Position numbers and translations under genes: made by a program. A stretch of DNA of 64,000 nucleotides from Quercus robur (lineage: Eukaryota > Streptophyta > Magnoliopsida > Fagales > Fagaceae), in the NCBI RefSeq assembly GCF_932294415.1, contig NC_065535.1, forward strand, positions 81,923,862 to 81,987,861, written 5' to 3'. This document shows positions 17,614 through 60,930 of this stretch, in pieces (position 1 is the stretch's first letter; each line of letters opens with the position of its first letter). The notes under the pieces are model-generated. The model was not told the DNA's origin and did not search any database. It saw only the letters and a list, made by a program, of their open reading frames with translations.

Positions 17614-19035
17614 CACACACAATCTTATTGTTTGGATTTTTTTTTTAATAAACTTATTTGATTTGTTTAGATTTGAAAGGTAGGGTGTTCACCATGCACC
17701 CCTTTCAATTTTTAATTCTCCTACAATTTTGTTTTAAAAATTTTATTATTATTATTAGGAGAAATATAATTTTAACTTCTATCTTATAAGAACAGTTTTA
17801 AATTAACGTTCTTTTTGTTTCGATGGAAAACATTGTATAAAGATAATTTTTCGTATTTTTCAATATTTGATAGTATCAGAAAAAATAAGTCAATGAAAAA
17901 TTATCTTTAATCAACATAAAAAGCATAGCTTATTTTTAGAAATTATTTTCTATTAATTTTTTTATTTAAAACAACTTTATCTCACTACAAACTAAATAAG
18001 GGAAGTTAGTATATTATATTTCAACTCATTTAAGATTACTACCAAACATAGGAAAATGAGATAACTTTATAGAAAATACTTTTTAAAAAATGACTTATTT
18101 TCTATAAAACATCTGGAACAAATAGAGCTTAATCCCTATAATTTTATAAGTTTTGAATTAAAAATTTAGAAATTTTTAGACTATTACGAATTAAACTCTA
18201 AATTTTTTTTTTAGTTTTAATGGAACTTTGGAAATTAAAAATAGTATCAATCTAAACCCCTAATAGAACTTAAATCTATTCCTAAATTATAGGGTTTAAA
18301 ATAATAGTTATCCTTATTATTAGAAGTATTACTAATTATTGTTAGTAGTAAAAGTTTTTTTTTTTAAAAAAATCAGATTTTATGTACTAATTTTCTAATT
18401 TTCTTTCTTTCTTTCTTTCTTTTTTTGGTGTTATTTTTTTATTTTTTTATTTTTTTTTGTTTTTGTTATTTTGTTTTTGTGTGGCTATAATTATATTGTG
18501 AAGGATGGATTGAGGATTGGATTTGGTTAAGTCACGCCAATGTAATTAGTGAGTTTTATAAATCATTATTTCAATAGATTATGGTTGTTGAAGCATTAAC
18601 GAAATTGGATATTTCCAAATCCCGAATTTGCCTCTATTTATATTTTGGAATGGCCTTGCAATAAGTATTTTATTCTCTGAAATCAACACATTTAATGGTC
18701 TCACTAGCAGATACGTATATTATAAAGTAAGTTATGCAATAGTAGTTTCTCAAGAAAATATAAAAAGTTATGCAATACTATGTATTGTTAATAACCCCAA
18801 AAAACTATGTAAATCATAAAGCCTTGGCGTTAGTTACAACTAATATTTGTGCATCACAATGCATTAGGTGGGGCCCATTATATTATTGGTCTAAAGATGT
18901 TCATTATATGGATTAACCTCGACTTTTCTATGTTAGGGGTTTGGTAATTTTTTTTTATATTATACAACAGAGGGAGAGAGATGTAAACTTTTGATCTTTT
19001 AAGGTTTGGAATTGTTTTCATTTTAGTTCATAAAG
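17346..19035. other. AT-rich intergenic DNA
   Basis: No coding segment was recognised. It holds an (AT/TA)n run at 17583-17607, a TTTC-type tetranucleotide run at 18402-18422, and a degenerate element-like stretch at 17860-18125 with AT-rich inverted phrases (GAAAATTATCTTT / TGACTTATTTTCTATAAAAC). Confidence 0.4.
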
Positions 19036-19244
19036 CGTGCGTTTGAATACCGCTTATTTTGCTAAAAACTGAAAACAATAAAAAAAATAATTAAAAAGTT
19101 ACTGTTTAAGCTTTGGTTACTGTTCATATGCTTGATTGCACTGTTCATGTCACATGAACAGTGCAACAGGCACCGGACTTAAAAAAAAAAAAAAAAAAAA
19201 TGCAGACTTGGAAAACGCATACGCCAAATCCAAACAAATACTAA
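19036..19244 (+). mobile_element. Small MITE, family A copy 2
   Basis: It begins GCGTTTGAATACCGCTTATTTTGCTAAAAACTGAAAA and ends ACGCCAAATCCAAACAAA. The ends are imperfect inverted repeats (GTTTGRATNNNGC / GCNNNATYCAAAC). The centre holds a complementary pair CACTGTTCATGTCACATGAACAGTGC that can form a 12-bp stem. Non-coding. It shares its core with the copies at 10205-10425 and 24616-24795. Confidence 0.55.
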
Positions 19245-22200
19245 GTTTGAGATTTTTCATTTTTATCCACCAATTTTGATTTTGTTTTCAAAGTAGTCAT
19301 TATGTCCATTTTGGTCACTAATCTAACCATTAAAAGATAGAACAAAGAGGAAATGACGCTATTTTGTTGGTATTTTGAAAATGTATCAAATTTGGTGGAC
19401 CAAAATGAATAGTCTCAAGGGACCATAATGAAGCAACCTCAAAACATTAAAGGTCAAAAGTATAATTTAGTTTAAGATACGTTTAGGATAGAGTCTTGTT
19501 TGCACCAATATGTTTTGGCATGATGGTAAAGTGAAATCATCGTAGAATAGACACCATAAGTTCAAATTATATATATTTGGGTTCAAGTTACACCTATTGT
19601 AACTTTAAAGAATATTACATCACCTAATAATTTCCTATTGAATTAATAAATTGAAAATCCCACCACTAGATTACATATTATTTATATTCTTAATATGTAT
19701 GCCAAATTTGGTATCAATTGGATTTTATTTACTATTTAACTCATAAATTCATCTTTGATACATAATTTTAAATTATAATATTTGAGTTTTAAATATTTGA
19801 TTGATAATATAGATACTAATATTTGATTGTCTTAAAATTTTATAAGTATAGAGAATATACAAAAATAATGTAATTCAACGATGGATTTGCAAAACTTGCC
19901 TCTAATAAAAAGATATAAGGTGGTGTAACATGAACGCATAACACACATATATACATATAGAACGAGTATGTTAATATTTGAGTGGATTATTCAGTGACTT
20001 GAAAAAGAAAAACTTTTGAGAGGATGACATGTCAGTGATTATGAATCCCATGTATGGTATCTCAGGGAGACTAAACAATATCACTAGAGTGAAAGGCTCT
20101 TAACACTAAACTTAAGAACAAATGTCTTTTGAAGATTAATAATATTTTTTTCCTAAAATATTTTCTTATGAATCTGTTACATTAATAAATTTATCATGTT
20201 ATTTGTAAATAATTCTACAATTTTTTTGTGATAAGATAATTTTACAATTGCTTAGGTAGACCATCTCCTGCTTTTTAAAGAACTCTGTTTCGGTGATGAA
20301 TTCATTCATTTTAAAACTAAATTAAGCACATGGAGTTATACAAATTAGTCAATTTCCAAAAAATAAATCTTCAAAAGTGTGCTATACGAGTCTCAAAAGA
20401 AATTCATTTACAAAGTATCTCTAATGTGTAATGGGTCAAACTGTCTCTGGGACTAGTTTGAAATTAGAGTGGCAGCTAATTTTCCCATTTGACTAGGTGC
20501 TTCTGAATATGTCAACACGTACATTCATCTTTAACAAAACAAACAGTGAAATTCAGCAAAAAAACAAAACAAACAGTGAAAGAACAAGAAGGATGATATA
20601 GCTAGTATTGCAGATTAATTTCTGTGTATAAAGCTACGTATATACGAATAAATGTATAATTGTCAATTGCCAGAAACCATAATGATTGTTTGTTTTAAAG
20701 GTTTTTCTACAAATCATCTCTGCAGTTGGAAATGGAGTCATCCCACTTTTCCATTAACATCAAATTTGGGTGGTCCTTTTTTTTTTTTTTTTTTGTTGAT
20801 AATTTGAGTGGTACAATTTATGTGTGCATATTGCATATTAGCTATATATCCATGCTATGCTTAGATTAATTAAAATAATTCTTCAAGAACCATACCATTA
20901 GTCACAACTTGTTAAAGCGATCGACAGTGAGTGGTGGACAATTATTTTTACGTAGATCTATCACTTTTTTTCCATCATTCATACTTGACCACATTAAAAC
21001 TGTGATAAAAGTTGCAGCACAAAAATTGTACTCCTAAACTTTCTCTAATTCAAAATTTTATGTAAATTTAGAGAATTTTTTTGGTATAAATGTAAGGGAA
21101 ATTGAACAAAAAAATATTAGTTAATAAAAGTAAAATAAAATATTACTTTAAGTTATATAACTCAAATAAGGTGGATTTATTTTTATCTAGTGGGTGATTA
21201 AAATAAATTAAAATACCCAATCAAATTGATTTTAAATTATTTCGAACTTTTAGTAATAGATTTTTAACTGAAATAGTAATATAATTTTTTTGAAACTTTA
21301 GTGCACTCAGATTTTGAGTAAAATTATCTTAATAATTTTGGTATATTTACATTACACTCTTTTATTGGTTACGGAAAAAAGAAATCCTAAAGTGGCGGGT
21401 ATAAAGAGTAATTTAAAAAAAAAAAAAAAAATTATAAAGAAAAAAGAGAGGGCATCCACTTGCGTAACTTTTTTTTTTTTTGATAGGTATCCACTTGCGT
21501 AACTTCTTTCAAATAATAACATTTCAATTTGATTCTCTCCTTTTACTTTTTCAGTTTGAATACCAAAATGTTCACTAGGGGAGGGGTCATGACTATGTAA
21601 TACAACGTGATTTTGAGAGTGACATTTGCCTTTACTTTAAAGGGAAATAAATAAATAAATAACATTTACCTATTGGGTCAATTTTTTTTTTGTTTTTTTG
21701 GAGAGAGTTTTAATCCATAGTCTCTGCTCCTCCTGATGATAGCTCTTTATCATTAAACTGAGACACTAATTAGTTTTTTGGTTTAGACATGGATTGAATC
21801 TCAGATCTCTTATACAATTATCAGAAATTTTACCAATTGAGGTAACTGAAACCCACAATCAAATATTCTTATATGATAGAGAGTAGACAAAAAAGATAAT
21901 TGCCAAATTATATACAATGGACAAGACACTTTTTTCTGTCAACTTGAATGAAAGAAATCTCCTCTAAATTATTACACAATGTTTCATCACATCATATTTG
22001 TATGCTTTTATCACATGATTTATTATATTATTAAAATAAATTGCACAGCTATGAAAAAAAAACTCAAATGCTTAAATGTATATAGATGGTCATTTGGATC
22101 ACATAACTACTAGTAGGGTAGAGAAATTTTATGCCCACCCCTTTTACTTTAAATTGAAAATTTATATTTTAGTTTGTTAAGAGACTATTTATTGCACCAG

Positions 22201-25970: not shown

Positions 25971-26540
25971 AATTTGAAATCAAACCAACTGATAATACCT
26001 GTAAGGACCGAGTTTGAATCCCAAACCCAAAGAATGAATAGGCTCGGGCCCAAAATGCCCAAAACAATAAATTTGTAGAGAGTGGGTTAGAAAACTGGGC
26101 TAGAATGAGTTGGATGGCAAACAAAATGGATTCAAATGACAAGAGCAGAAAGGTAGATGGATTCCAACTAAAGAAAGTCGTCCTCGGATAGATATGAGGA
26201 GATCAATTCTTGTATATTTATCTTAAGTATGGGAAAATAGAGAGAGAAATCTAAAGAGAGACGTTGTAGCAATCAGGAAATAAATATACAAGAACCGATC
26301 TCCTCAGATCTGTCCGAGGACGACTTTCTTTAGTTGGAATCCATCTACCTTTCTACTCTTGTCATTTGAATCCATTTTGTTTGCCATCCAACTCATTCTA
26401 GCCTAGTTTTCCAACTCACTCTCTACAAATTTATTGTTTTGGGCCTTTTGAGCCCGAGCCTATTCATTCTTTGGGATTGGGATTCAAACTTGGTCCTTAC
26501 AATACCTATAGGTATTATTAGTTGGTTTGATTTCAAATTG
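25971..26540. repeat. Palindrome of about 62 bp split by a fold-back insertion
   Basis: The outer parts 25971-25999 and 26507-26539 are reverse complements of each other with one mismatch. Without the insert and the second ATACC they would read as one hairpin centred on ATACCTATAGGTAT. The insert at 26000-26501 sits exactly at the centre, flanked by ATACC on both sides. Confidence 0.75.
26000..26501. mobile_element. Fold-back element with TG...CA ends and ATACC target duplication
   Basis: The element starts TGTAAGGACC and ends GGTCCTTACA. The arms 26000-26220 and 26281-26501 are near-identical inverted copies, with a spacer of about 60 bp. The 5-bp flanks 25995-25999 and 26502-26506 are both ATACC. 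TG...CA ends and a 5-bp duplication are the signature of integrase-mediated (LTR-type) insertion, yet the body is a palindrome. Phrases inside the arms (CAATAAATTTGTAGAGAGTGGG, CTCGGACAGATCTGAGGAG) resemble LTR segments of the Tat element in this window, so the arms look like two LTR 5' ends joined head to head. No coding capacity. Confidence 0.75.
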
Positions 26541-33878: not shown

Positions 33879-38671
<4,793 letters not shown>

Positions 38672-39035: not shown

Positions 39036-39714
39036 TGTAGTTGCACGATTTTCCTGATCCAAATCCTACTGATCAGGCCTTGGCCCAAGGTGCAACACAC
39101 AATAAATCTTTGTAGAGGATGGGTCAAAGAACTTAGCCTCAGTGAACTTAGCCGGTCTGACGCATGAACAATGTTATTGCATAAACAAAAAACACAAGAA
39201 TGGATGTCTAACAGAAGATTCTATTTCCTGGGCACAGATCATACATTTTTCGTCCCTCTCTTTGAGGGACTCCACTACATTATATAGGTCTCTCATTCTT
39301 ATCTGAACCTTACACTTGTTGATTATCTAAGCCCCCACTTGAGCACCTGTCCTATTAGACACCCTTATCACTCCCTTGTGAGTTGCAGTGGCCAAGGTAG
39401 CACTATTCAGGGGTCTTTTCCTCATTAATGCGGCCAAGAGGGTGGTTGTGACATATTTAATGTGGTGGTAGCAGCTTTCCATGAGATATTTTGGGTTTTA
39501 TTCTTTTTTATATGCTTGGAGGATGAACTGCAATGGTTGGGGCGAGCTCTTGATCCGGACTTCGTAATGTCTGAGGAGGAGTTACTCCTCGGACAGGTTT
39601 CTTTTACCGCAATTGGGCTTAAATAATGTTTGGGCTATGACTTCTCCTCGGACAGGATTCTTCTCGGGCGGGCCCGTAGTTTAATTAGCCCATTATTTTG
39701 GGCCGGACCCCACA
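39036..39714 (-). repeat. 3' LTR of the Tat element
   Basis: On the plus strand it begins TGTAGTTGCACG and ends GGACCCCACA. It is collinear with 49045-49723 over its full length. It carries a minus-strand TATATAA at 39286-39280. The sequence immediately inside (39715 on; minus strand ...TTTTGAGGGGCTAT) is the likely polypurine tract. Confidence 0.93.
39280..39286 (-). promoter_or_regulatory. TATA box candidate in the 3' LTR, facing PRMT10
   Basis: TATATAA on the minus strand. The same motif is kept in the 5' LTR at 49295-49289. In the 3' LTR position it would direct transcription out of the element towards PRMT10. Confidence 0.45.
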
Positions 39715-39970
39715 ATAGCCCCTCAAAACTCCGGTTTTTATTTCCTTCCGAGGAGAAAAGCGGGGTTTTGACGTTAGTGAGGGTGGAAGTAAGGAGGGTT
39801 TGGGGCGCGCGTGCGGGCAGTTACTTTGGACGCGCTACAATTTACGAGGCGCGACCATTTACTCTCGGAGGCTTTATGTCCCCTTCATCCAACGGTGAGG
39901 CGTGGATCGGACGGCCAGCATTTTTTCTCGAATTTTTAGGCGGGAGCAATCTTTTCTCTCTCCTCCCGGC

Positions 39971-39977
39971 TATATAA
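39971..39977 (+). promoter_or_regulatory. TATA box candidate of the antisense gene
   Basis: TATATAA in the context CCCGGCTATATAAGACGTCAG, about 280 bp upstream of the antisense-gene ATG at 40255. The leader between them contains a possible small intron (AAG|GTATCAG near 40157 to CCTCCAG or CTCAG just before the ATG). Confidence 0.55.
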
Positions 39978-40254
39978 GACGTCAGAGAGATTCAGTTTTC
40001 TTTTTATCGGCATCTCATAAACTCCAGAGGATTCCAGAGAACTCCATCGAACTCCAGAGATCTACGAATACTTGCGTCCGTTAAGCCTCCACAGCCGTTT
40101 TCGTGAAGCGTCTCCTCCAAGAGAGATTTCCAGGCATCCCATTGGGCGTTTTGTGAAGGTATCAGTAAATTTCGTTCATTTCGCTGTTTCGATTCCCTCC
40201 TCGGACTTTACTTTTCTCCTCGGTCTTTATTTTCATTCCTCCAGTTCAGCTCAG

Positions 40255-42683
40255 ATGGGTAGATTCAAAAAACTAGTAAGTACTTCGACCGCTATGGAGG
40301 CCTTTAGGGCAAAATACCACATTCCCCCGGGGGTGGGGCTGCAGTACTGTCCTCTTGAAGGAGTATTGACAGATAGAGGCGAGGGAGAAATTGTTATCCC
40401 CATGATTGCTTTCATAGAGGGAGGGATGACACTTCCCATGCGTAGGATTACAAGGGAATACCTGTTCAACCATAGGTTGACGCCGCATCAGTGTGCCCCA
40501 AACATGTTCAAGATACTAGGCTGTGTAGACGTCCTAGACGAGCGGATGAATCTAGGCCTTACCTGGCACAATGTGGTTTATCTGTACGAGCGTCACCACA
40601 TCGAGAAAGGAGGGTATTATCTTAAATCCTGATCCGAGGTCGTTAGGTTGATCTCTTGTCTCCCAGTATCCAATAAGACCGTGAAGAAGGATTTCCTTAT
40701 TGCTTCAAGGGAGTGGAGCAATGGTATTCATTGTCCAACTCGGGCAGGAGTCCTAGGTGCGGCGTGTTTAGGGCCAATCCTTTTCGGGAAAGGGTTTAGT
40801 ATTGGGGGGTTATTTTTCTCGCTTTCTGTACAATTGGAAAATTTCGTGAACTAATCCCATTCCTTTTGGATGTTTGTAGATAAAGTTCATGTCGCTCCTC
40901 GACTAAGCCTCGTGAATGTGCCGGCGTTGAACTACCTTCTAAGGTCGGAAATTTATGCTACTGAGGATGGACAGTTACGTGCAGCTCATCTGGTTCTGGG
41001 CTATCAACCTCTAAGCCGCTCTTTCCAAGCTATCGGTCACGCCATAAGAGCTAGCAATCCGAAGTTGGCTAGGATTGACGTGTCTAAGACCGGGTTCCTA
41101 GCTCGACGTGATCTTCCACCAGTCGTGCTACCTGGCATTCGAGATCCCTTGCTAGCAGAGCAACTACCTCTGCCAGACGACCCTGACGTTGCCGTTCCGG
41201 TTGAAGGGGAAACCGAATCATCTCGTCTTTCCCTTGAGGAAGAGATAGACGAGTTTTATTTTGAGGAGGAGGTTCAGCAAGCCCCCTTAATTGAGCTTTC
41301 GGATCCTGAAGGAGAGCAGGATCGACACTCCGCAGCTGGCACTCCCTTAATCATAGCCTGCTCGGACAACCCTTCGGACGAAAAGATAGACCCCATGGCC
41401 GGTAAGGGAAAAACTTTACGGGAGTTGATGGCCTCCCGAAGGAAAGGTCAATCATCAAAAAGTCAGTCATCAAAGGGACCAACTCAGTCACAGGCCCAGA
41501 CCCTTCCTCTTGTGGTCCCTCAGGATCCCTCGGACCATGGCCTCAAGGTTAATCCGGACCTGAAGAAGAAAAGGCCGGTTGACGCTCCTGAGGAGGGTGA
41601 GGTGGTTGCCCAGCCGACTAAGCAGCAAAAAACCACCCGAGCACCGAGAAGCAGAAGGGGTGACTCCGTGGAAAGCCGGGATGAGGAGAACCGTGCTGAG
41701 GTGCGCGCTACCCCGCGTACATGGAGCCCCAAGCTGGAGCTAGATGGGGTTGCTATCCCCTACAATGCGTCGATCCGAGACTATAACCGGGGCCGAGCAG
41801 GGTACGTAGCTGATGCCTTGAAGCAACCCCTACTCCTTCCTCGAGATATGGAGGCCTACAGGCGGTTCTTTCAGCCCGAGATTTTCCTATCCCTCAAAAG
41901 GGATCTCGCGATGGTAAGTGACCCTTTTACTATTTTATTAAATTAATTTATTTAACCCTGTTAAATTCTAAACCAATCTTGTTTTGTTCGCAGATTACTC
42001 AGCAGGTATTTGTGGCTGAGGAGTTTTGTCATGATAATCGCAGTCGGGCTGAGGCTGAGACCCAGTCTCAGACGGAGATGGAGAAAGCCTTGGGGTCCCT
42101 CAAGCACGATCACCTTGAACTCACGGAGAAGTTCAAGGAGTCGGAGAAATGGCGCAAGAGTGCAGAGGCCGATTTAAAAAGTGCCGAGACCCAAGTGGAG
42201 GATCAGCGCAAAGAGCTGTACGCGACCCAAATCAACTTTGCCACCGAGAAGCAGGCAGTGCTGGATCTCAAGACTGTCCTACAAAAAGTCGAGGATGAGC
42301 TACGGCGGGTCAAAGAGGAGGCTCAGCTGATCCGAGAGGTTGCAGAGGCTGAAAAGAATGCTTCTCGCCAGCTCGGGGTCCAAGAAACAGAGGCCAGGCT
42401 ATCCGAGGAGATCCCCGAGGTGTGCAGGGACTGCTGCAGCATCTCATGGGCTCGTGCCCTTGATGCTGCAGGAATTCCTGCGGATTCGGCGCTGAGACTG
42501 CCCGAGAACATCTTCTATCCTCAGGAGATCCGAGAGAATCCTGATGGCGCTCAAGCGGCTTTGGAGCAGGATCTGGCGGTGCCTGATGCCGTCCCTGTGC
42601 TTGTCCTCAGCCAGAGCAAAAAAAAGATCCTCCTCATCAGCCAGAGCAGAAGAAAGATCCTCCTGTTAAGGCTTAGCTTTTAG
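40255..42683 (+). pseudogene. Antisense gene (aORF) of the Tat element, one internal stop
   Basis: It lies between the 3' end of pol and the 3' LTR on the strand opposite to gag-pol. It starts MGRFKKLVSTSTAMEAFRAK at 40255 and runs in frame to a TGA at 40630-40632. The same frame then continues with SEVVRLISCLPVSNKT. A further segment opens after an acceptor-like TTTGTAG at 40879 (KVHVAPRLSLVNVPALNYLL). The clear intron is 41914-41993 (ATG|GTAAGT ... GCAG|ATTACT, phase 0). The last exon encodes a long Glu/Lys-rich coiled coil and ends at 42683. The middle is acidic and then basic (KKKRPVDAPEEGE). Proteins of this type appear in Fagaceae annotations as uncharacterised or putative plant transposon proteins. 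The function is unknown. The single TGA probably inactivates this copy. Confidence 0.7.
41914..41993 (+). other. Spliceosomal intron in the antisense gene
   Basis: It is 80 bp with donor ATG|GTAAGT and acceptor TTGTTCGCAG|ATTACT, T-rich in its body, phase 0. Reading through it hits a stop at once (TTTTATTAAATTAA), while removing it joins KRDLAM to ITQQVFVAEE. Confidence 0.8.
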
Positions 42684-42831
42684 GCTTTTAATTTTTGTAT
42701 TCCCCTTTTTTTTTTTGAATGAGAGTCGTCCTGTTTTTGAGTTCTTTTGTAAGGACCTCTCGTTGTATTGACCTCGGAATATTAATATAGAGTGTTTGCT
42801 TTGCTTTCTATGGATGTATGCTAGTACCACT

Positions 42832-42870
<39 letters not shown>

Positions 42871-42979
42871 GTTTGCAACGACATAAATAAATATAAGCGG
42901 TCGAGATAAAAAGGATGTTGTGCAACGAATTTGAATGAGGGTTGCAATGGTGCTAGACTGCGCGCACGCCTTAAAATGA

Positions 42980-43576
42980 TTTCCCTTAAGTAATAATTTC
43001 CCAAACTGTCATAAGTAATAATTTCCCCTAAGTCTGTGGTCTGAGGAGCCATGCAGGACTTAGGTTCTGTTTAAAACTTGGATAAATTGTCATAAGTAAT
43101 AATTTCCCCTAAGTCTGTGGTCCGAGGAGCCATGCAGGACTTAGGTTCTGTTTAAAACTATGAATAGTTGCCATAAGTAATAATTTCCCCTAAGTCTGTG
43201 GTCCGAGGAGCCATGCAGGACTTAGGTTCTGTTTAAAACTATGAATAGTTGCCATAAGTAATAATTTCCCCTAAGTCTATGGTCCGAGGAGCCATGAAGG
43301 ACTTAGGTTCTGTTTAAAACTTGGATAAATTGTCATAAGTAATAATTTCCTCTAAGTCTGTGGTCCGAGGAGCCATGCAGGATTTAGGTTCTGTTTAAAA
43401 CTTGGATAAATTGTCATAAGTAATAATTTTCCCTAAGTCTGTGGTCCAAGGAGCCATGCAGGACTTAGGTTCTGTTTAAAACTATGAATAGTTGCCATAA
43501 GTAATAATTTCCCCTAAGTCTGTGGTCCGAGGAGTCATGCAGGACTTAAGTTCTGTTTAAAACTATGAATAGTTGT
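42980..43576. repeat. 81-bp tandem array, seven copies, between pol and the antisense gene
   Basis: CATAAGTAATAATTT starts at 43010, 43091, 43172, 43253, 43334, 43415 and 43496, each 81 bp apart, with a partial copy near 42986. Two unit types alternate irregularly: one with ACTTGGATAAATTGT and one with ACTATGAATAGTTGC at the same place. The unit carries TAAGTCTGTGGTCCGAGGAG and CATGCAGGACTTAGG, whose CCTAAGT/ACTTAGG parts are inverted. Such 3'-region arrays are known in Tat elements as seeds of satellite DNA. Confidence 0.95.
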
Positions 43577-43634
43577 AAATAGACCGGTGGGCACAGGATA
43601 ATCACGAAACAAAACATGGGCAAAGCCATTTTCA

Positions 43635-44348
43635 TTAATAATAGTATCTTCTTAGGTTATTTACATTCCATGGTCGATGTACAGTTTTTTCATCCAAATC
43701 TTCTAGATAATAAGCGCCTATCCCGGCCACGGATGTGATGCGATACGGTCCTTCCCAATTAGGCCCCAGCTTGCCCCAAGAGGGGTTTTTTGCGCTGCCG
43801 AGAATTTTTCTCATTACGAGATCGCTCGGACTTAAAGGTCGCAGTTTAACATTGGCATCATATCCTTGTCTTAGCTTCTGATGATAATAGGCCATATGGA
43901 TCGTTGCTTTTTCCCTTATTTCCTCGGCTAGGTCTAGACTTCTTCCCAATAACTCGTCGTTACTGTTTGGGGTGAATGAGCTAGACCTCAGTGTGGGAAA
44001 GTTGTTCTCGATTGGGAGCACGACCTCAGCCCCATAAGTCATCGAAAAGGGGGTTTCACTGGTTGACTGTCGTGGCGTTGTCCGATAGGTCCATAAGACA
44101 TGTGGGAGCTCTTCTACCCATCTCCCCTTTGCCTCATCCAGTCTTTTCTTCAGTCCGCTCACTATGACCTTGTTCATGGCCTCGGCCTGCCCATTTCCCT
44201 GGGGGTAGGCGGGAGTGGAGTATCGGTTAATGATCCTAAACTCGCGGCAATACTCCCTAAAGTTCTTGCTGTCGAACTGGAGACCGTTGTTCGAGATGAG
44301 TGTGTGTGGAGTTCCGAAGCGGGTAATAATGTTCTTCTAGATGAATTT
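43635..44348 (-). pseudogene. Integrase C-terminal part and chromodomain-side region of the Tat element
   Basis: The frame 44177-43635 encodes LDEAKGRWVEELPHVLWTYR, a typical late integrase-core segment, then PFSMTYGAEVVLPIE and a GPYRI-type C-terminal fold ending VHRPWNVNNLRRYY. Between 44348 and 44178 the frame holds two in-frame TAG codons at ...GCCTAGAAATTCATCTAGAAG where Trp (TGG) is expected, then resumes. No intact product is possible. Confidence 0.85.
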
Positions 44349-45458
44349 CTAGGCATCCACGTCCCTAATGTTGGCCAAAAGTTCAGCCTCCACCCATTTG
44401 GTGAAGTAATCGGTTCCAACTATTATGTATCGCTTGTTTCCCGCAGCTTTGGGGAAGGGACCGACAATATCAAGACCCCATTGTGCAAACGGCCAGGGGC
44501 TAGAGAGGGGGTTGAGGACTCCTTCGGGTTGGTGGATATTCGGGGCGAATCTCTGGCACTGATCACACTTCTTGGCGTACTCTTGGGCCTCTCTTTGCAT
44601 GTTCGGCCACCAATATCCTTGGGTGAGTGCCTTGTGTGCTAGCGACCTTCCTCCGGTGTGACTTCCACAAATCCCCTCATATAACTCTTCAAGTAGAGAC
44701 TCAGACTCTTCTGGATGTATGCAGAGTAGGTATGGCCCAGAGTAGGAGCGCCGATATAGCTTGTAGTCCTCTGATAGCCAGAACCGAGAAGCATTCCTCC
44801 GTACCTTCTCGGCCTCCAACTTTCCCTCTGGTAGGATGTCGTCTTGGAGGAAGTTTTTTATGGGATCCATCCAGCTGGGGCTCTTTCTGATCTGATGGAC
44901 CTGGGCCGGGTTTCTTCTAATGGGACTTGCTTGGACTAGATCTTCGACAAGGATCATTCGCGGTAGATTATGCGCTGAGGACGTGGCGAGAGTGGCCAGC
45001 GAGTCTGCATTGGTGTTTACACTCCTAGAAATGTGCGTCAGATTGAAGGATTCAAAACTCGTCTGTAAGCGTTTAACTTGTCCTAGATACTCTTGCATCC
45101 TAGCATCTCTAGCTTCCAGCTCACCCATCACTTGGCCGACGACCAACCTGGAGTCCGAGAATGCTTCTATTACTCTTCCGTCCAATCTTTGAACCATCGT
45201 CATCCCTTGAAGTAAGGCTTCGTATTTGGCTTCATTGTTCGTAGCCGAGAACCCGAGCCTCAGTGATTTTTCAATGGCAGCACCGTCCGGTGATATCAAA
45301 ACTATACCAACTCCAGATCCCCTCTGGTTGGCCGCGCCATCCACGTAGACCTTCCAATGCAAGGTCCCCCCTGCTGAAATTGTACCAACCGATTTTCCAT
45401 CCATGTTTTTCTTCTCGGTTATTATTTCTATAGAGGGTTCAGCAAACTCCGCGACCAA
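44349..45458 (-). pseudogene. Second (archaeal-type) RNase H and integrase of the Tat element
   Basis: The frame carries WKVYVDGAANQRGSGVGIVL (first catalytic Asp), NNEAKYEALLQG (catalytic Glu) and DSRLVVGQV (second Asp): a complete second RNase H. After a linker comes the integrase zinc finger (GSHTGGRSLAHKAL...CDQC) and the start of the catalytic core (WGLDIVGPF, then GTDYFTKWVEAE). The second RNase H is the diagnostic Tat feature. The frame ends at a stop inside the integrase core and continues at 44177 after mutated Trp codons. Confidence 0.9.
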
Positions 45459-45470
45459 GTCTGCGAGGAC

Positions 45471-46680
45471 CTAACCTTTGACGGAGGATCTGGGCATATA
45501 TTTAATATCAAAGGTCCCCAAAAGTGCACTCCACATGGCGATCCTTCCTGTGTAGTCGGCACTTCGAAGCACCACTCGAAAGGGGAGCTGAGTTAGAACA
45601 ATGATCGTATGCACCTGAAAGTAGTGAGGGAGCTTCTGCGTGGCGTGCACTATCGCCAGAATTGCTTTTTCCAAGGGTAGGTATCACACCTCAGCCTCAT
45701 GTAATGACTTGCTCACATAGTAAACCGGTCGCTGCACCCCATTATCATCCCGTATCAGTATCAGGCTGACAGCATGGGGGGCTACAGCGGCGTATGCAAA
45801 CAGTACCTCGTCTGCCTCAGGGCTGGACATGATGGGTGGTCGTGATAGGTATTCCTTAAGCTGCTGGAAGGCCCGAACACAATCCTCCGACCATTCAAAC
45901 CCTTTCCACTTATTTATCAAGAGGTAGAAAGGTCGACATCGATCCGCTGATCGTGATATGAACCTGTTTAACGCTGCGATCATGCCTGTGAGCTTCTGCA
46001 CTTCTTTTGGATTCCGAGGAGCATACAGGCTGTTAATTGCTTTGATCTGATCGGGACTTACTTCTATTCCCCTGTGGGTTACCATATACCCCAAGAATTT
46101 CCCAGACCCGACCCCGAATGAACATTTAGAAGTATTGAGCCGTAGCTTGTGCTCCCTTAGGACAGCAAAGATTGTTTCGAGGTCTTTCACGTGCTCGGAC
46201 ACCACTTTACTCTTTATGACCATATCATCTATGTAGACCTCAATGATTTTGCCCAGCTGTGGCTCGAACATCCTGGTCATCATCCTTTGGTAGGTTGACC
46301 CCACGTTTTTCAGTCCAAACGGCATCACCTTATAGTGATAGTTTCCGACGAGCGTCATGAAAGCTGTCTTCTCCTGGTCTTCTAACGCGAGGGGTATCTG
46401 GTGATAGCCCTGGAAGGCGTCCAGGAAACTCATTCGAGGTTGACCCACGGTTGTGTCCAACAATCGGTCGATTCTGGGTAAGGGAAATGGGTCCTTTGGG
46501 CACGCCTTGTTCAGGTCCGTGAAGTCCACGCAGACTCTCCACTTCCCTGTCTTCTTCCTTACCACCACCGTGTTTGCCAACCATTCGGGGTAAAAGACCT
46601 CTTTGATAGCCCCCGCTTTTTTCAGTTTTGCCACCTCGTCTCTTACGGCACTAGCATGTTCCTTTGAGGGACATCAGGAT
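45471..46680 (-). pseudogene. Reverse transcriptase and first RNase H of the Tat element
   Basis: The frame 46634-45684 encodes the RT: WRVCVDFTDLNKACPKDPFP, FQGYHQIPL, the catalytic YIDDM box in EVYIDDMVIKSK, then FLGYMVTHRGIEV. The frame 45674-45471 continues with EKAILAIVHATQKLPHYFQ of the first RNase H. A TGA where CGA (Arg) is expected (between 45684 and 45674) and a TAG where CAG (Gln) is expected (just before 45458) split it. Upstream of 46634 the frame is lost near 46670, probably by an indel. Confidence 0.9.
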
Positions 46681-47396
46681 GGCTGCTTCTTCGGAGTGGA
46701 AGAGGGGTTAACATTCAGGTGGTGACAAATAAGGCTAGGATCAACTCCCGGGGCGTCGTAGGCGTTCCATGCAAACACATCGACATTTGCTCTGAGAAAT
46801 CTGACCAGTTCCTCTTTTTCTTGAGAAGGCAACTTGGAGCCGACCTGAAAAAACTTCTCCGGGTCGCTGTTGACAGCGAATTTATCTAAACTTTCACACC
46901 TTATCTCCTCGGCTAGTCCATCGCCTTGCCCTGCTGAGGCGGCTGGTTGCTATAAGCTCTCAGGGGCCAAGGACTCAGCACGGGGCCGATGTAAGATGGC
47001 GGCCACCATACACTGCTTGGCCATGGCCTGATCTCCTCGGATCTCTTCTACTTATCCTCTGGATGGGTATTTTACTTTTTGGTGGAGTGTGGAGGATACG
47101 GCTTCTAGGGCGTGGATCCATGGCCTGGCAACTATCGCGGTGTAGGGTGAGTAAGCGTCGACCACGATAAAATTTACCTCCACCACCTCCAACCCAGTCT
47201 GTATGCGTAGTCGGATCTGCCCCTTTGGCGTAACAATCTTCCCTTCGAAGCTGAGAAGGGGGGAGTCATAAGCTGCCAAATCTTCCGGCTTCAAGTTCAG
47301 ACCCTTGTATAGATCAGGGTACATTATCTCTACCGCACTTCCTGAGTCTACCAACACCCTTTTCACATCGAAGCCTCTAATTCTTAACGTAACCAT
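46681..47396 (-). pseudogene. Aspartic protease region of the Tat element
   Basis: The frame 47396-47052 holds the catalytic box RVLVDSGSAVEIMY, with DSG at the active site, and the later strand NFIVVDAYSPYTAIVARPW. It ends in a TAA where CAA (Gln) is expected. The frame can be followed on through VEEIRGDQAMAKQ to about 46925, where another TAG stands for a Gln codon. The 46.7-46.9 kb part is the protease-RT linker. Confidence 0.85.
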
Positions 47397-47423
47397 TAAG
47401 GCATCGTTGTGAGGTTGAATAGT

Positions 47424-48991
47424 TCATCTCTTATCCTTGTCCGAGAATCCCAGTATCAAAGAGCTTCCCTTTTTTGACCTTTTGGGTTCCCTTTGCCTAT
47501 CCTCGGAGGGGAGCCGATCAACAGCCAGTACCCTGGGAAGGGGTGGCCTAGTTCTTCCTGGTGCGGCGAGGATGACATGTATCGTTCCGGTGGGGGGTCT
47601 TAAGGACACATCCTTTCGAAACTCTTGTATTGCTTGAGCGGGATGACCGTTTGAGGGGTGCAGAAAGTGACGTAACTTCCCTTCTCGGACCAACTGATCT
47701 AGGTGATTCCATAGATTCCTGCAATCCTCAGTGATATGCCCATGGTCCTGATGATAGTGGCAGTACAAGTTCTGGTTACGTTTGGAAGGGTCTCCAGCCA
47801 TCTTTCCCGGCCATCTGAAATAGGGCTCGTGCCTTACTTTCTCCAGCACCTGTTGTACTGGCTTCTTGAATACGGCATTCACTGTCTGCGGGTTGCTCTG
47901 TCCAGCCTGTCGCGAAAAATCTCTCCTCGGCTGGCCGTGGTCGTAACGTTCCGACCTAAAATCATTTGCTTTGGGAGGAGTGATCTTCTCCTTTCCCCTT
48001 CCTTGCAGCTGATCTTCTTCTACCCTTTTGTACTTGTCGATCCTATCCATCAACTGATGAACGTTGGCAACCGGTTTACCAGTGAAGGATTTCCTTAAGC
48101 CATGCTCGGTGGGGAGACCGCTTTTGAATGTGCTGATAGCAACATCATCATGGTTGTCATCTAACTCGTTATGCACCTCCCAATATCTATCCGAATATGC
48201 TTTCAGGGTCTCTCCTTCGTGCATGGATAAGGACAATAGCGAACTGAGGGGTCGAGGGACTCTGGTGTTTGTAATAAAGCGGGAGCAAAAGGCCTAAGTG
48301 AGCTGCTTGTATGAGCCTATGGAATTGGTCTTCAAGCTGTTGAACCACCTCATCGCCATTGATCCCAAGCTGGATGGGAAGATTTTGCACATTAGGGCTT
48401 CATTCTGCGAGTAGATCGCCATTTTTTGGTTAAACTGACTCACGTGCTCTACCGGGTCTGCTCAGCCGTTATAGATGGCGAACGTCGGTTGGTTGAAGTG
48501 TCGAGGCAACTTAGCCCCTTCGATTCTATACGTGAAGGGTGAGACCTTGAAACCTGGTCTAGCGCCCTCTTCATAGCATCGTTTCCCGAACCCTTGCTGG
48601 ATGGGCTCTCATATTTCCGTACAGAGCATGGTTCCCTTTCGTAAGAAAAGGTTTCACTTGGGGGGGTCCTCTACCTCCGTCGGTAACTCGCATCCTCCGC
48701 ATTAGAGGACTCGTCTGAGCCAGAGGGAGATCGTTTTCGCTGCACACGACGCAACTTCCTTTTCAGGTCATCTATCTCTCGCTGCATGGCCTGATGACTA
48801 TTTCGCCTCTGGGACACGTGACTACCTGTCTGAGTGTGACTCTGGCTCGTCCAGATAGTATGCACACTTCCCTCACGATTCCTTCTGCCGCCTAGGTTGG
48901 CAGGGTTATTTTGCCTTTGGGACTCAACCGGTTGTGTCTGTTGGGAGTTAGCCTGGTGAGGATTCTCCTGGTGTGGACCTAGTTCTGCCAT
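47424..48991 (-). pseudogene. Gag region of the Tat element
   Basis: The frame 48236-47424 includes LSMHEGETLKAYSDRYWEV (capsid), KSGLPTEHGLRKSFTGK, and a CCHC-like knuckle CHYHQDHGHITEDC. It ends in a TGA where CGA (Arg) is expected, and the same frame continues as TIQPHNDALMVTLRI into the protease, so gag and protease were one frame. The N-terminal part (48991-48671) is Gln/Arg/Ser-rich and is separated from the capsid by a stop and by broken sequence at 48237-48670. Confidence 0.85.
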
Positions 48992-49024
48992 GCTCGACCG
49001 TCGTGCTAGCTAATACCCTAGTTC

Positions 49025-49042
49025 TCCCCACAGACGGCGCCA
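49025..49042 (-). other. Primer binding site of the Tat element
   Basis: Directly inside the 5' LTR, with a 2-base gap, the minus strand reads TGGCGCCGTCTGTGGGGA. The TGGCGCC start is complementary to a tRNA 3' end ending in GGCGCCA, the layout of Tat/Athila-type elements. The exact tRNA is not assigned here. Confidence 0.8.
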
Positions 49043-49044
49043 AT

Positions 49045-49723
49045 TGTAGTTGCACGATTTTCCTGGTCCAAATCCTACTGATCAGGCCTTGGCCCAAGGC
49101 GCAACACACAATAAATCTTTGTAGAGGATGGGTCAAAGAACTTAGCCTCAGTGAACTTAGCCGGTTTGACGCATTGACAATGTTATTGCAGAAACAAAAA
49201 ACACAAGAATGGATGTCTAACAGAAGATTCTATTTCCTGGGCACAGATCATACATTTTTCGTCCCTCTTTTTGAGGGACTCCACTAAATTATATAGGTCT
49301 CTCATTCTTATCTGAACCTTACACTTGTTGATCATCTAAGCCCCCACTTGAGCACCTGTCCTATCAGACACCCTTATCACTCCCTTGTGAGTTGCAGTGG
49401 TCAAGGTAGCACTGTTCAGGGGTCTTTTCCTCATTAATGCGGCTAAGAGGGTGGTTGTGACACATTTAATGTGGTGGTGGCAGCTTTCCATGAGATATTT
49501 TGGGTTTTATTCTTTTTTATATGCTTGGAGGATGAACTGCAATGGTTGGGGCGAGCTCTTGATCCGGACTTCGTAATGTCTGAGGAGGAGTTACTCCTCG
49601 GACAGGTTTCTTTTACCGCAATTAGATTTAAATGATGTTTGGGCTATGACTTCTCCTCAGACAGGATTCTTCTCGGACGGGCCCGTAGTTTAATTAGCCC
49701 ATTATTTTGGGCTGGGCCCCACA
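49045..49723 (-). repeat. 5' LTR of the Tat element
   Basis: 679 bp, collinear with the copy at 39036-39714. It contains the minus-strand TATATAA at 49295-49289, which should drive gag-pol transcription. Most LTR-LTR differences are C/T or G/A transitions. Confidence 0.93.
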
Positions 49724-51352: not shown

Positions 51353-51655
51353 CCGCACACAGTGCAGCAGCTGGTCTAGCTGCTGCACTGTGTGCAGCTT
51401 GGGCTGCTGCACTGGGTTGCACACAGTGCAGCAGCTAGACTAGCTGCTGCACCTGTGTGCAACCCAGTGCAGCAGCCCAAGCTGCACTGGCTGCTGCACT
51501 GTGTGCAGCTTGGGCTGCTGCACTGGGTTGCACACAGTGCAGCAGCTAGACTAGCTGCTGCACCTGTGTGCAGCCCAGTGCAGCAGCCCAAGCTGCACTA
51601 GCTGCTGCACTGTGTGCAGCTTGGGCTGCACACTGCACTGGCAGCTAGTCCAAGC
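51353..51655. repeat. Palindromic 111-bp tandem array rich in CTGCTGCAC/GTGCAGCAG
   Basis: The phrase TGCTGCACTGTGTGCAGC starts at 51381, 51492 and 51603, exactly 111 bp apart. Each unit is internally self-complementary (GCACACAGTGCAGCAGCTAG against CTAGCTGCTGCAC...), so the array can fold into nested hairpins on either strand. 111 is a multiple of three, which is why both strands stay open across it. It is GC-rich in an otherwise AT-rich region and sits just upstream of the ORF1 start. Confidence 0.95.
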
Positions 51656-51756: not shown

Positions 51757-52772
51757 ATGGGTAAAAAGACTACTTCCAACTCTGAGGTAAAAAAGGCTAG
51801 AGCAGACTGGGATATTAATCCAACGTGGACAACTACCTTTTGTAACATTTGTGTGGAACAAATTCAAGCCGGGAATAGAACAAAAGGTGCTGGCTTTAGT
51901 ACCAAAGGTTGGGTCAATTTGGTGACCAAATTTTGTAATGAGACCGGTCTAAACTATGATAAGGACCAATTAAAAAGTAGGTGGGATGTATTGAAAGGTG
52001 ACTGGAGAGTGTGGGAAAGATTGAAGAATCTTGACACAGGTTTAGGTTGGGATGCAGAGAAGGGAACGATTGCTGCTCCTGATGAATGGTGGGACCTAAA
52101 GTTGAAGGTGAGTTGAGTATTTTATTAATATGTAGTTAGTTGAAGATAGTTTTTTTTATATTATTGTTATATGAGTGAAATTACAATTACATATTGTAGG
52201 AATTACCCAAAGCCAAAAAGTTTCGAGAGAAAGGTCCACAGAATCTAGAACAACTTGATATAATGTTTAGAGATGTTGCAGCAACTGGGGTAGCTGCATG
52301 GACCCCTTCTTCAAATTCACTCCCTCCAACAATGCCAGAAGAGGGTGCTGGTGATTCAGATGGTAGCTCCGAATTTAAGGATAACCAATGTGACATGAGT
52401 TTAGACATTGATAGTTTGCAGCAAGGACAAACTAGTCAATCACGTAGTTCAGGACAAAAGCGAACTAGTGTATCAATACCCTCACAGAAGAAAAAGAAGA
52501 AGATAGGAGGAGCTGCAATGTTGGACGATCGTATGTGTCAATTAATAACTGCATGTCAAAATAGGTCTGAAGGTACTTCTCGAGAGTCACCAAGTTCAGT
52601 TGATAATGTTATGACGATTGTGAGAGCACTTCCTGGAGTGGAAAGTTCGTTCGTGGTTCAAGCTTCCTATATCTTACTAAAAAAGTCACGTAGGGAGATG
52701 TTCCTAACTTTTAAGGACCCAGAGGTACAGCTAGAGTGGCTACAAGGAATGATTTATAACCAAAAGAAGTGA
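51757..52772 (+). CDS. Harbinger ORF1: Myb/SANT-like DNA-binding protein
   Basis: Exons 51757-52107 and 52200-52772, intron donor AAG|GTGAGT and acceptor TTGTAG|GAA, phase 0, 307 residues. The N-terminal 100 residues form a Myb/SANT-like (trihelix-type) domain: ADWDINPTWTTTFCNICVEQ, then GWVNLVTKFCNETGLNYDK and LKSRWDVLKGDW with the spaced Trp residues of this fold. A Ser-rich linker and a basic stretch (QKKKKKIGG, a possible nuclear signal) follow, then a conserved C-terminal helical region (VVQASYILLKKSRREMFLTF). In Harbinger elements this protein binds the ends and helps bring the transposase into the nucleus. The gene lies 283 bp upstream of ORF2 on the same strand. No damage is visible. 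Confidence 0.9.
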
Positions 52773-53055
52773 ACAACTTTATGTTGTATTAACTTTAAAC
52801 TAAGTTAGCTATGTTGTATTAGCTATATTGTATTAACTTTAAACTAAGTTATGTGACATTTAGTATTAGCTTTGGACTAATATGTGTAATGTAAACACAT
52901 TTGAAATTTTCATTACAATGTTATGTACTTGATATTTTAAATTGTCTTGGTATGTTTTGAATTGTCTTGATGTTCTGATTATTATGTTGATCTATATTAA
53001 AATAGTATTAGCAAGGGTTGACTATTTGTTACTTTGTTGTGTAGCTTAAACCAAT

Positions 53056-54604
53056 ATGGATGATTATAATGGTACTCATGAGAGTGGCCATTTTATGGAA
53101 CTATTAATGGATGGAGATTACAGAAATTACTGTGATGATTTTGATGATGGTGATTATAACAATGTTGACAATAATGATAATGGTGATAACAATGATGATG
53201 ATGATGGTGAGAGTAGTGACAGTGATGATGACAGTGATAGTGATTCTGATGATGATGATAGTAATGATGATTCTGATGAAGAGTTTTACCAGCTTGTGGC
53301 AATTACTTGTGAAGCAGTTGTGACATATTTCAATAAGTACATTAATAAGACTCCTTGTTATGATTCTGAACAAACAGGGTGGGTTTGGGTGAGACGTTGT
53401 ATGGAAGGTAATGAGAAATTGTGTTACAATATGTTTAGAATGAAAAAGGAGGTGTTTCATAATTTGTGTCAAGTTTTACAACATGATTATGGACTTGAAC
53501 ATACAAGGAATATAAGGTTAGAAGAGTCAGTGGCAATCTGTTTACTGATACTTGGTCATGGAACATGTAACCGAATGGTTCAAGAAATATTTCAGCATTC
53601 AGGTGAAACCATAAGTAGGCATTTTGAGAAGATGATAACTCTGTTGGGTGCTCGCTTTGCAGCTGCATATGTAAAGCCTTCGAATCCAACTTTTAGTGAA
53701 GTTCCAACCAAAATACAAGACCATCCAATTTATTGGCCACCTTTCAAAGTATGTGTACTATTGTATATTTGAATAAGTACTATTGTATAATACAATGCAT
53801 GTGGAACTGAAAACTATTAATGTTTTTATTAGGATTGCATCGGTGCGATTGATGGCACACATGTGATGGCGGTTGTACCTACTGAGAAGTCCATTCCGTA
53901 CTTTGGAAGAAAGGGATATCCAACCCAAAATGTGATGGCTGCATGTGACTTTGATATGTTATTCACATTTGTTTTGCCTGGATGGGAAGGTGCAGCACAC
54001 AACACCTCTATTTTTCTTGATACTATTCGTAAACAAAGTAACAACTTTCCGCACCCACCACCAGGTTTGTGCCATGGTTAATCAATTCTTCATTATAATG
54101 ACATATTGTGTGTGTGTTAATACAATTGAATTTTCTTTTCTAGGAAAATATTATGTAGTTGATTCTGGATACCCAATGATGAAAGGCTATTTGGCACCAT
54201 ACAAGGGGATATCATACCATCTTCAGGAATTTCGAAGGAGAGGTGGAAGCCCTAGAACTAGACATGAAAAATTTAATCATGCTCACTCATCTCTTCGATG
54301 TACGATTGAGCGCACTTTTGGTGTGTGGAAGAATAAATGGAGAATTATCATAAACATGCCATCTTTTCCATTCCATATCCAAATACTTATTGTATCTGCT
54401 ACTATGGCTCTTCATAATTTTGTTAGACTAAATGATAGGGATGATATGGGCTTTATAAACGCCACTCAAGATTCAATTTCTAGAAGAGAACATAATAGTG
54501 AAGCAGGTAGCAGTTATGAGCAGAATTCAGGAACTTTAACAGACCCTGCGATGGTGGTTCTTCGTGATTCCATTGCTAATTCCATTTGGGAGGATAATAA
54601 TTAG
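53056..54604 (+). CDS. Harbinger ORF2: DDE transposase (HARBI1-like, DDE_Tnp_4)
   Basis: Exons 53056-53748, 53833-54064 and 54144-54604, with GT-AG introns (FK|GTATGT to TTAG|GAT; CCAG|GTTTGT to TCTAG|GAA). They join to 461 residues with no stop. Residues about 20-75 are a very acidic Asp/Asn/Ser run (GAT/GAC repeats). A helix-turn-helix-like region (LEESVAICLLILGHGTCNRM, then IFQHSGETISRHF) precedes the catalytic core. The DDE triad is visible: Asp238 in GAIDGTH, Asp315 in VVDSGYP, Glu364 in TIERTFGVWKNKW. The enzyme cuts at the element ends and joins them to TWA targets. The acidic tract probably mimics nucleic acid or tunes partner binding, which is inference. The minus-strand His-rich frames over the GAT repeats are artefacts. 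Confidence 0.95.
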
Positions 54605-54921: not shown

Positions 54922-55408
54922 TTGATTTAAGTATGAAATAAACTCCTTATATATACATTGTCCTTTTTGGTAATTTACCCTTCAAACTGCAACTTTTATA
55001 GTGCTAGCCAAACACTCAGCTTTTTCAAAAAGCACTTTTTAACAGTTTTTACCAAACACTCAGCTTTTTGAAAAATCACTTTTTCATTATGCACTTTTTG
55101 AAAACTCAACTTTTTAAAAAAGTTCAACTTTTGAAAGTCGAACCAAACTCACCCTATATTGGATCTGCCTAAGGGTGAGTTTGGTTCAGTTTTTTGAAAA
55201 AAGTGCATAATGAAAAAGTTGAGTTTTCAAAAAGTGCATAATGAAAAAGCGTTTTTTCAAAAAGCTGAGTATTTGGTAAAAGTTGTTAAAAAGTGCTTTT
55301 TGAAAAAGCTGAGTGTTTGGCTAGCACTTATAAAAGTGACAGTTTGAAAGGTAAATTACCAAAAAGGACAATGTATATATAAGAGAGTTTATTTCATACT
55401 TAAATCAA
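54922..55408. repeat. Long fold-back inside the Harbinger element (arms about 235 bp, loop 16 bp)
   Basis: The left arm is 54922-55155 and the right arm 55172-55408, nearly identical in reverse complement. The pairing runs from TTGATTTAAGTATGAAATAAACTC at the outer end to GAACCAAACTCACCCT at the loop. A transcript would form a long, nearly perfect hairpin. The inner ends (GGGTGAGTTTGGTTC) look like TIRs of a small element, so this may be two copies arranged head to head. Confidence 0.9.
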
Positions 55409-55415
55409 TATTGTG

Positions 55416-58729: not shown

Positions 58730-59299
58730 TAGACATGACAAAATGGGTCAGAAAATTCTGAGCCGACCCGACTCGAAAAAACCTAACCCGAACCCGATTT
58801 TTTTTACCCGAAGCAAAAACGGGTTGACCCGTGACCCGACTCAATTTTTTTGCAACTCAACCTGACCCGACTTGGATAACCCATGACCTAACCCATTAAA
58901 AAAAATTCGTTAAAAAAATATTTAGACTACGTCTTGATACTAGGTGCATAAAGCACAAAGCACCAAACTATAGTTGTCAAATTGTAAATTGATTTTTGAT
59001 TTTTCTGTATCGTGTATCGTATTAAATCTTGTATCATAAGTTACACAAACATGTAATAAAATTATAAAACAATTATAAATATACATATATAAAAAGTATA
59101 TTTATTATAAATTCAAAATATATTCAACTAATGACCAATTTAATCATTACTTATGTAATAAAATTTAACAAAGCTAACTAAATAAATCAAATTAACTTAT
59201 ATTTATAACATGACCATTCAAATTGATTAAACTTAGAAGTAATACATGATATATGAACCAAAAGAATAATATCTTTTCATCATCTTGGTTAATCAACTC

Positions 59300-60096
59300 T
59301 GTACGGACCAATAAAGTTTGCGGCCCAAGCCCACTTAGAGTAACGGGTCATAGCCTTCAAACTTAGCCCTAAGTCAATAAAATTTGTAAGAGATGGGAAA
59401 GAACAACAACAATGAGCTCTGCCTGAGGACAATTATGGGGAAGAATCAGATTTGTATTCAAATATAAATGAGTATCAAGCTTCATACAAAGACCCCCAAG
59501 GAGGCAGGATTCATGTAGAAAGTGATATTGTTCCCCTCTCTCTTTCAATGCACTCCTCTCTATTTCTCTTTTTCTCTCTGCTTTCTCCTATCCATCTTCC
59601 CAATGCCCCTTTCCTTTCATTTTATAGCACTCTTCCATCGCATCCTCACTATCCATTTCTAACTAACCCCCCTCCTTTTCCGACACTTGTTACCTTTCAC
59701 CTCTAAAGAAGATGGTGGCAGAGACCTGCTTAGCTGTGACCTATACTGTTCAGATCATTTCCTCATTAATGCAGCTGATAAAGCTATTGTCTTCCAATTA
59801 ATGCGAATGCAACAGGCTACACCAGGCCTAAAGCTTCCCTACTGCCCACTGTCTTCCACTCTTTTCTGACCCTAACTTCCCTTAGAATGCCTCGGAGTAC
59901 CATGACTCGTTTCCTCCCCTCCTTGGGTGACTTCTTCCCTTGGGCCCGTGGCTTACAGCATCTTCGCGTCATTGTTGCGACCCTTTAGCTTCCTCCTCGG
60001 TCCTCGGGCCAACATTGCTATCCTTTAACTTCCTCCTCAGTCCTCGGGCCAATATGGCAACCCTTCAACTTCATCCTCGGTCCTTGGGTACCCACA
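59300..60096. mobile_element. Solo LTR, 797 bp, with AACTC target duplication
   Basis: It starts TGTACGGACCAATAAAG and ends GGGTACCCACA. The flanks are AACTC at 59295-59299 and AACTC at 60097-60101. The phrases CAATAAAATTTGTAAGAGATGGG and CCTCGGTCCTCGGGCC recall the Tat LTRs elsewhere in this window. A unit of about 48 bp (CTTCCTCCTCGGTCCTCGGG then CCAAYAT) is repeated near its right end (59988-60090). The open frames 59452-59706 and 59940-60212 inside it are not genes. Confidence 0.8.
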
Positions 60097-60099
60097 AAC

Positions 60100-60930
60100 T
60101 CCTTCTAAGTCAATGTTATCATTATGTTCAGCATCTTACAAAATTATTTTTTCATAAACACTTTCTTCATTATTATCAACATATACTTTTTTTTTGTTTT
60201 TTTTTATTCTAATAATTTTTCTTTTTCTTTTTTCTTTGCATTCTATCTTTTTAGACTCATAATAATAATAAAAAAATAAAAAATAATAATTATATTTTCA
60301 TTTAATACATTATTAATAGTATAGGAAATAAATTTGCACATATGAAAGTGAGTGTTATGAGTATAGTCTAAATTTTGTAGAAGTGTGAGATGGAAGGAAA
60401 AAAACTCAAGGACTTGCTATTTTATTATACTCAATTAAGTTCCCTAATAATTTTGTGTTAAAAAAGTCTAACAACTTGTTTAAACCAAATAAAATCACAA
60501 ATTTTAACCCAAAAAAAAAACCCTTTTTAAACCCACATGTCTATGTATCGTACGATATGTACGATTCACCAATACAATACAATTCATACGATACGCACCT
60601 ATGTATCGGACGATTCATGAGCACTTACGAGACACCTTTACAATATGAAACTTTTTGTATACGATACGATACTGACAACAGACAAGACAAGACAATAGCT
60701 TCACATTCAATTTGACTATTTGAGCTTCACAACCAACAAGAGCTTCACAAATATGAGAGAATGAGACAAGACAAGACAACCATTAAAAAAAAAAAATTAT
60801 AAATCTCATTTTATTTCACTAGCTAACTAGCTGTAGTCCAAAGGCACAAACGTGAAACGTGACAAATCACAAAGGCCAAAGCTTCCTCAGTTCCTCTACT
60901 CTTGCACCTCTACCCTTCTTTTCACACTTT
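60100..60930. other. Interior of the hAT-like element, no gene
   Basis: AT-rich DNA followed by a patch with several variants of GTATCGTACGATA / ATACGATACG (60545-60680), related to the TGTATCGTGTATCGTATTAAATC phrase at 58985-59030. The frame 60455-60715 covers it and is not considered coding. The phrase TTCACACTTTCACAC occurs at 60920-60935, with a similar one at 63070-63085 after the Ogre-like LTR. Confidence 0.35.

Follow-up and report, generated by a model that had tools for sequence, protein, structure and literature searches.

Within the 64,000-nt stretch of Quercus robur DNA that we analysed (contig NC_065535.1; hereafter the window), the inverted repeat at 26000-26501 is probably the relic of a faulty round of reverse transcription, in which a U5-R strong-stop DNA was turned back on itself and integrated via two U5 ends. 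Both ends of this insert are of the U5 type, a 5-bp duplication borders it, its two halves overlap by 2 bp where they meet, at an inferred cap site, and its relatives elsewhere in the genome, judged by sequence, are ordinary LTRs. The origin as strong-stop DNA is drawn from the first and the third of these observations.

The insert is 502 nt long, with arms of 222 nt (26000-26221 and 26280-26501) around a 58-nt loop. The arms are identical at 210 of 222 positions, with 12 mismatches and no gaps, and the RNA fold of the insert (-375.9 kcal/mol) lies far below that of 100 shuffled sequences (mean -120.6, sd 6.3). Its termini are TG...CA, and perfect copies of ATACC stand on either side (25995-25999 and 26502-26506, + strand). 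The initial annotation had described an LTR-derived, head-to-head inverted repeat with these ends and flanks, inserted as a unit, and our analysis agrees with it on each of these points. TG...CA termini together with a duplication of 5 bp, the length seen in the relatives, are the marks of an integrase product, and integrase was presumably the enzyme involved.

Relatives were sought in the whole genome (785.7 Mb, 42 contigs). With the insert as query, the best 40 of 1,684 first-look candidates were scored, and 40 LTR copies were parsed besides the insert; since these are the best 40 scored, the family may well be larger. When the U5-R part of L004, a close relative, served as query (best 40 of 1,407 scored), both insert halves and all of the parsed copies except L035 were recovered. 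The relatives are LTRs of ~800 bp. An exact copy of the 5-bp flank follows the terminal CA at 793-816 bp in 11 of the 40, and a copy with one mismatch was observed in L012 (at 821 bp) and L032 (at 800 bp). L035, the LTR of which carries an insertion, has an exact copy at 986 bp, and the remaining 26 have either no such copy or looser matches. At L003:1441-1510, two related LTRs have their U5 ends turned towards each other with GTTTG in between; one LTR was inserted immediately next to the end of the other.

In five of the 40 relatives, an antisense TGGCGCC-type primer site directly adjoins the TGTAAGGACC end (exact in L018, L019 and L040; one base off in L010 and L033), and therefore this end is U5. 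Both termini of the insert are of this type and neither is a U3 terminus, which in 12 solo LTRs is mostly TGTAGGGATAAGGGCC or near it. The U3 and U5 termini of the family are alike (TGTAGGGA / TGTAAGGA), so that two U5 ends would be plausible substrates for integration. A reading of the insert ends as U3 ends was rejected on the basis of a minus-strand gypsy-type element in the window and of the primer sites of the relatives. We also rejected a solo LTR, which is similar to the insert in its LTR sequence, TG...CA termini, 5-bp duplication and missing internal region, but has one U3 and one U5 terminus where the insert has two U5 and no U3. The junction of a 2-LTR circle would be U5-U3. As both insert ends are U5, such a junction was discarded as the source, and the self-integration at a palindromic junction put forward in the initial annotation was not borne out.

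The window itself provided two yardsticks, the first of them for the orientation of U5. The element at 39036-49723 (- strand; LTRs at 39036-39714 and 49045-49723, differing at 23 of 679 positions, with a primer site beside 49045) is a distant relative that we take to be of the gypsy type from the order of its domains. It has reverse transcriptase, RNase H and integrase zinc-binding domains on the - strand in a Pfam scan of ten window reading frames, seven of which matched; the matches also include P450, ENT, DDE_Tnp_4 and Myb/SANT-like. The left arm aligned to the LTR of this element with a score of 39.5 (maximum of 29.5 in 1,000 shuffles), and none of the 336 control windows reached this value. 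Their maximum, 38.0, came from windows containing a solo LTR at 59300-60096 (- strand; duplication AACTC at 59295-59299 and 60097-60101), which is related to the insert and resembles the ends of its arms; other control scores were 35.5 at 19 kb, 32.0 at 2.5-2.8 kb and 30.0 at 57 kb. Because these controls score near the gypsy-type LTR alignment, we built our inference on the genome relatives.

Several other repeats were observed in the window. At 18901-19950, two overlapping 700-nt windows gave the score of 35.5 against the left arm, for which it should be kept in mind that the shuffle maximum of 29.5 was made on another target. An 81-bp tandem repeat (x7) lies inside the gypsy-type element at 43003-43571, and an inverted repeat with 142-nt arms, 81% complementary, at 35712-36120. 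A GC-rich 111-bp tandem repeat, with units rich in inverted repeats, is present at 51362-51629, just upstream of the Myb/SANT-like and DDE_Tnp_4 reading frames (51757-54604), which are presumably PIF/Harbinger-like. The large fold-back at 54922-55410 (arms 54946-55115 and 55213-55383), perhaps a MITE, has a longer symmetry of its flanks by eye.

Alignment to the relatives accounted for the whole insert. Counted from the U5 end of the native LTR, the left half (26000-26232, sense on the - strand) is native 1-233, consisting of U5 and part of R, and L004 aligns to it over 1-233 unbroken at 93%. The right half (26231-26501, + strand) is R-U5 in sense; it begins at the inferred cap (GGGAAAATAG) and ends with the U5 terminus. 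It equals native 294-1 minus 23 nt (271 + 23 = 294), and L004 1-291 aligns to it at 84%. This half turns at ..CTATTTTCCC, and comparison with L004 and L010 places the turn-round point at 26231-26232, where a GG is common to the left half (native 232-233) and to the cap end of the right half; the halves overlap by these 2 bp. The 23 nt missing relative to the relatives (native ~223-245) map to the point 26279-26280, and in 18 of the 21 copies compared, alignment to the right half with the loop required 23 or more gap positions. The left half, being unbroken to 233, still has native 223-233. The sum of the parts is 233 + 294 - 2 - 23 = 502, with no remainder.

The position at which the right half turns, native 294, is a putative RNA cap site, which we infer from its distance to the TATA box and from L018 rather than from transcripts. 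The turn-round stretch and TATATAA are both present in 14 of the 40 relatives, and the other 26 are without one of the two marks, many owing to a shorter stretch there. The distance from native 294 to the first T of TATATAA is 35 nt in nine copies, 36 in three, 34 in one and 41 in one (L031); thus it is 34-36 nt in 13 of the 14 measurable relatives. Plant RNAs usually begin ~30-35 nt from the first T of the TATA box. An independent mark comes from L018, which consists of an LTR, followed by a primer site and leader (~140 nt) homologous to five other copies, and then by an R-U5 piece that ends within ~3 nt of native 294. From this arrangement, L018 too apparently looks like strong-stop DNA that was joined to a wrong template. 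It is a compact element (L018:982-2232, G000:C39), the two U5-R pieces of which differ at 22 of 222 sites, and (AT)n flanks make its target duplication unreadable.

We propose the following origin of the insert. A tRNA-primed minus-strand strong-stop DNA, made of U5 and then R and halting at the RNA cap, would have failed to transfer to the 3' end of the RNA. Its own 3' end (..TTTTCCC) would have paired by CC with the GG at native 232-233, ~61 nt upstream, on the same strand or on a second strong-stop strand. Extension of the paired 3' end by reverse transcriptase back to the U5 end would give U5-R/R-U5, and this molecule, once duplex, would carry a U5 terminus at each end. Integrase may then have treated it as an ordinary element and inserted it, with duplication of ATACC, at a target site that was probably a short palindrome already. 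The 23-nt deletion would postdate the copying, because the left half, copied from the right one in this model, keeps native 223-233. The 12 arm differences would also be later, if both arms came from one molecule.

Several points count against this model. Pairing over no more than 2 bp would have had to prime the copying, and because a hairpin is open at one end only, the step from hairpin to two-ended duplex has to be postulated. When ten native U5-R strands were folded as DNA, they had no stem in common that would bring the 3' end to the priming site; such a stem would be a supporting, not a necessary, feature of self-priming. Self-priming of HIV-1 strong-stop DNA was reportedly described by Guo (1997) and by Driscoll and Hughes (2000). 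This self-priming is TAR-dependent and is described as competing with strand transfer (PMC4668388). The insert is similar to that product in the copy-back from a 3' end near the cap, which leaves U5-R inverted on itself. The HIV-1 case is described as a product of reverse transcription, whereas the insert is chromosomal, belongs to a plant LTR family, and has a 2-bp overlap and no predicted stem. No integrated U5-R/R-U5 element was found in a literature search conducted mostly at the level of titles and the first lines of abstracts, in which subscription journals were thinly covered.

Two RNAs are packaged per particle, and the insert could instead stem from two separate strong-stop DNAs that were co-inserted, each by one U5 end into one of the two target strands, after which the inner ends were end-joined with a 2-bp overlap. 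Both U5 ends and the 5-bp duplication would follow from this with no need of a step from hairpin to duplex, and such an origin fits the fact that only one half reaches the cap; on the other hand, one half must have lost 61 nt. The kinship of the arms has a bearing on both sides. Both arms fall into one supported clade with L003 and L004 (96/89), which speaks for a single source, but in the best tree the right arm groups with L004 (96/45), and the two arms were joined in 4% of 200 bootstrap trees. A constraint making the arms sisters costs 0.47 log units and is not rejected (AU p 0.215). The two arms differ at 12 of 222 sites (9 of them transitions), compared with at least 13 between either arm and the 21 copies compared, and their divergence is also below that of four presumed LTR pairs of single elements (17, 17, 19 and 23 differences at 218-222 sites). 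Such low divergence fits arms that were identical at birth, without proving it. We consider two co-inserted strong-stop DNAs unlikely, and both arms may come from a single parent molecule.

We also scanned the genome for the U5 end pattern with up to two mismatches and obtained 126 matches (0 for the reversed control). Among the 100 matches listed, the insert itself is the only pair on opposite strands within 20 kb, and that a single such element was seen also counts against the proposed origin. Exact-pattern scans of viral contigs and of genome contigs gave no match. The rarity of the arrangement bears on a third explanation, namely that two ordinary LTRs were inserted at one spot in opposite orientation and then lost their inner U3 parts. 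Adjacent LTR ends do occur, as in L003, where two U5 ends face across 5 bp. However, this explanation requires two insertions with one common duplication as well as a deletion that ended at the cap site by chance, and the insert is the sole inverted pair of its kind among the ends listed; we therefore hold it to be very unlikely. A MITE or another terminal-inverted-repeat DNA transposon with TG...CA ends is hardly credible: the insert has the overall shape of MITEs and foldback elements (short, non-coding, with long inverted arms and a small loop), but its arms are LTR sequence, its single-orientation relatives have a primer site and a TATA box, and no second inverted copy was present among the 100 listed of the 126 ends.

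The insert is itself surrounded by a smaller palindrome. The left arm at 25971-25999 is an inverted copy of the right arm at 26511-26539, with 1 mismatch in 29 and no other match in the genome, and the tip TATA lies at 26507-26510. When the flanks were rejoined and one ATACC was removed, a 62-bp palindrome with a 29-pair stem (one G-T) and a 4-nt loop was obtained. It scores 28; the highest value among 9,115 positions sampled across the window was 23, at a repeat near 51.5 kb. The hairpin of about 62 bp formed by inverted flanks, as claimed in the initial annotation, was thus confirmed, with the correction that the right arm starts at 26511 and not at 26507. The insertion point, placed at the very centre of the palindrome in the initial annotation, is off-centre: 5 bp separate the axis from the midpoint of the duplicated ATACC. 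The rejoined flanks (84 nt) matched only their own two flanks in the genome (2 first-look candidates), which speaks against the outer arms being part of a larger repeated element, and no empty allele turned up in this genome search.

Integration into a cruciform or hairpin tip had also been suggested. Palindrome scores were obtained for the 13 of 40 relatives in which a duplication, perfect or with one mismatch, lies near the expected LTR length; the other 27, including L035 and some with looser matches, were dropped. All 13 sites, together with the solo LTR at 59300 (joined-site score 3), score 2-7 versus 28 at the insert, bearing in mind that L008 and L012 among them have like flanks and may be one duplicated event. 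The common 5-bp duplication suggests a continuous duplex target, and with these low scores elsewhere, integration into a cruciform or hairpin tip is not supported. Published surveys describe a slight palindrome preference among 14,813 plant LTR elements (PMC6911290) and mixed effects of cruciform motifs for retroviruses (PMC9962126). On this one case, the double palindrome is most likely a coincidence.

Alternatively, the flank palindrome could have arisen later, through template switching at the base of the inserted hairpin, so that the right flank became an inverted copy of the left one. This would agree with the absence of any other genome match to the palindrome, and a single-stranded insert would bring both flanks together. 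The axis, however, omits the second ATACC, as expected for a palindrome split by a 5-bp duplicating insertion, and later copying would need to start 9 nt beyond the insert. We judge this order of events decidedly unlikely and keep to a palindrome that probably preceded the insert. We set aside an insertion by one end with subsequent replication around the hairpin, as the inverted flank should then abut the insert, but ATACCTATA intervenes. We also considered that the outer palindrome might be an element of 52 bp with TG...CA ends and a duplicated AATT (4 bp), but dropped this as weak, AATT being self-complementary.

If transcribed, the insert would yield an RNA hairpin whose stem measures 222 nt. 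It has at least one exact 21-mer in common with 35 of the 40 relatives and an exact 24-mer with 29 of them, and on this ground it may, by analogy with Mu killer, have a role in silencing. Mu killer of maize is likewise an inverted duplication of a transposon's own sequence that could yield a family-matching hairpin RNA (PMC3440606). The insert differs in its proposed origin by reverse transcription and in that its hairpin RNA is only predicted. We give little credence to a bolder view, in which self-priming of strong-stop DNA would be a live side-route of retrotransposition, integrase would take two U5 ends and plant family-silencing hairpin genes, and palindromic cDNA would favour palindromic targets, making the nesting causal.

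Self-primed strong-stop DNA has been described as abortive; a chromosomal copy with a clean duplication would mean that it can serve as a two-U5 substrate of integration. Long inverted repeats built from LTR sequence could then arise simply by two-U5 insertion, and in plants such repeats could supply RNA silencing directed at the parent family. A U5-R/R-U5 structure turning at the cap site would also be a signature that can be scanned for, through which the rate of failure of first-strand transfer may be followed across genomes.
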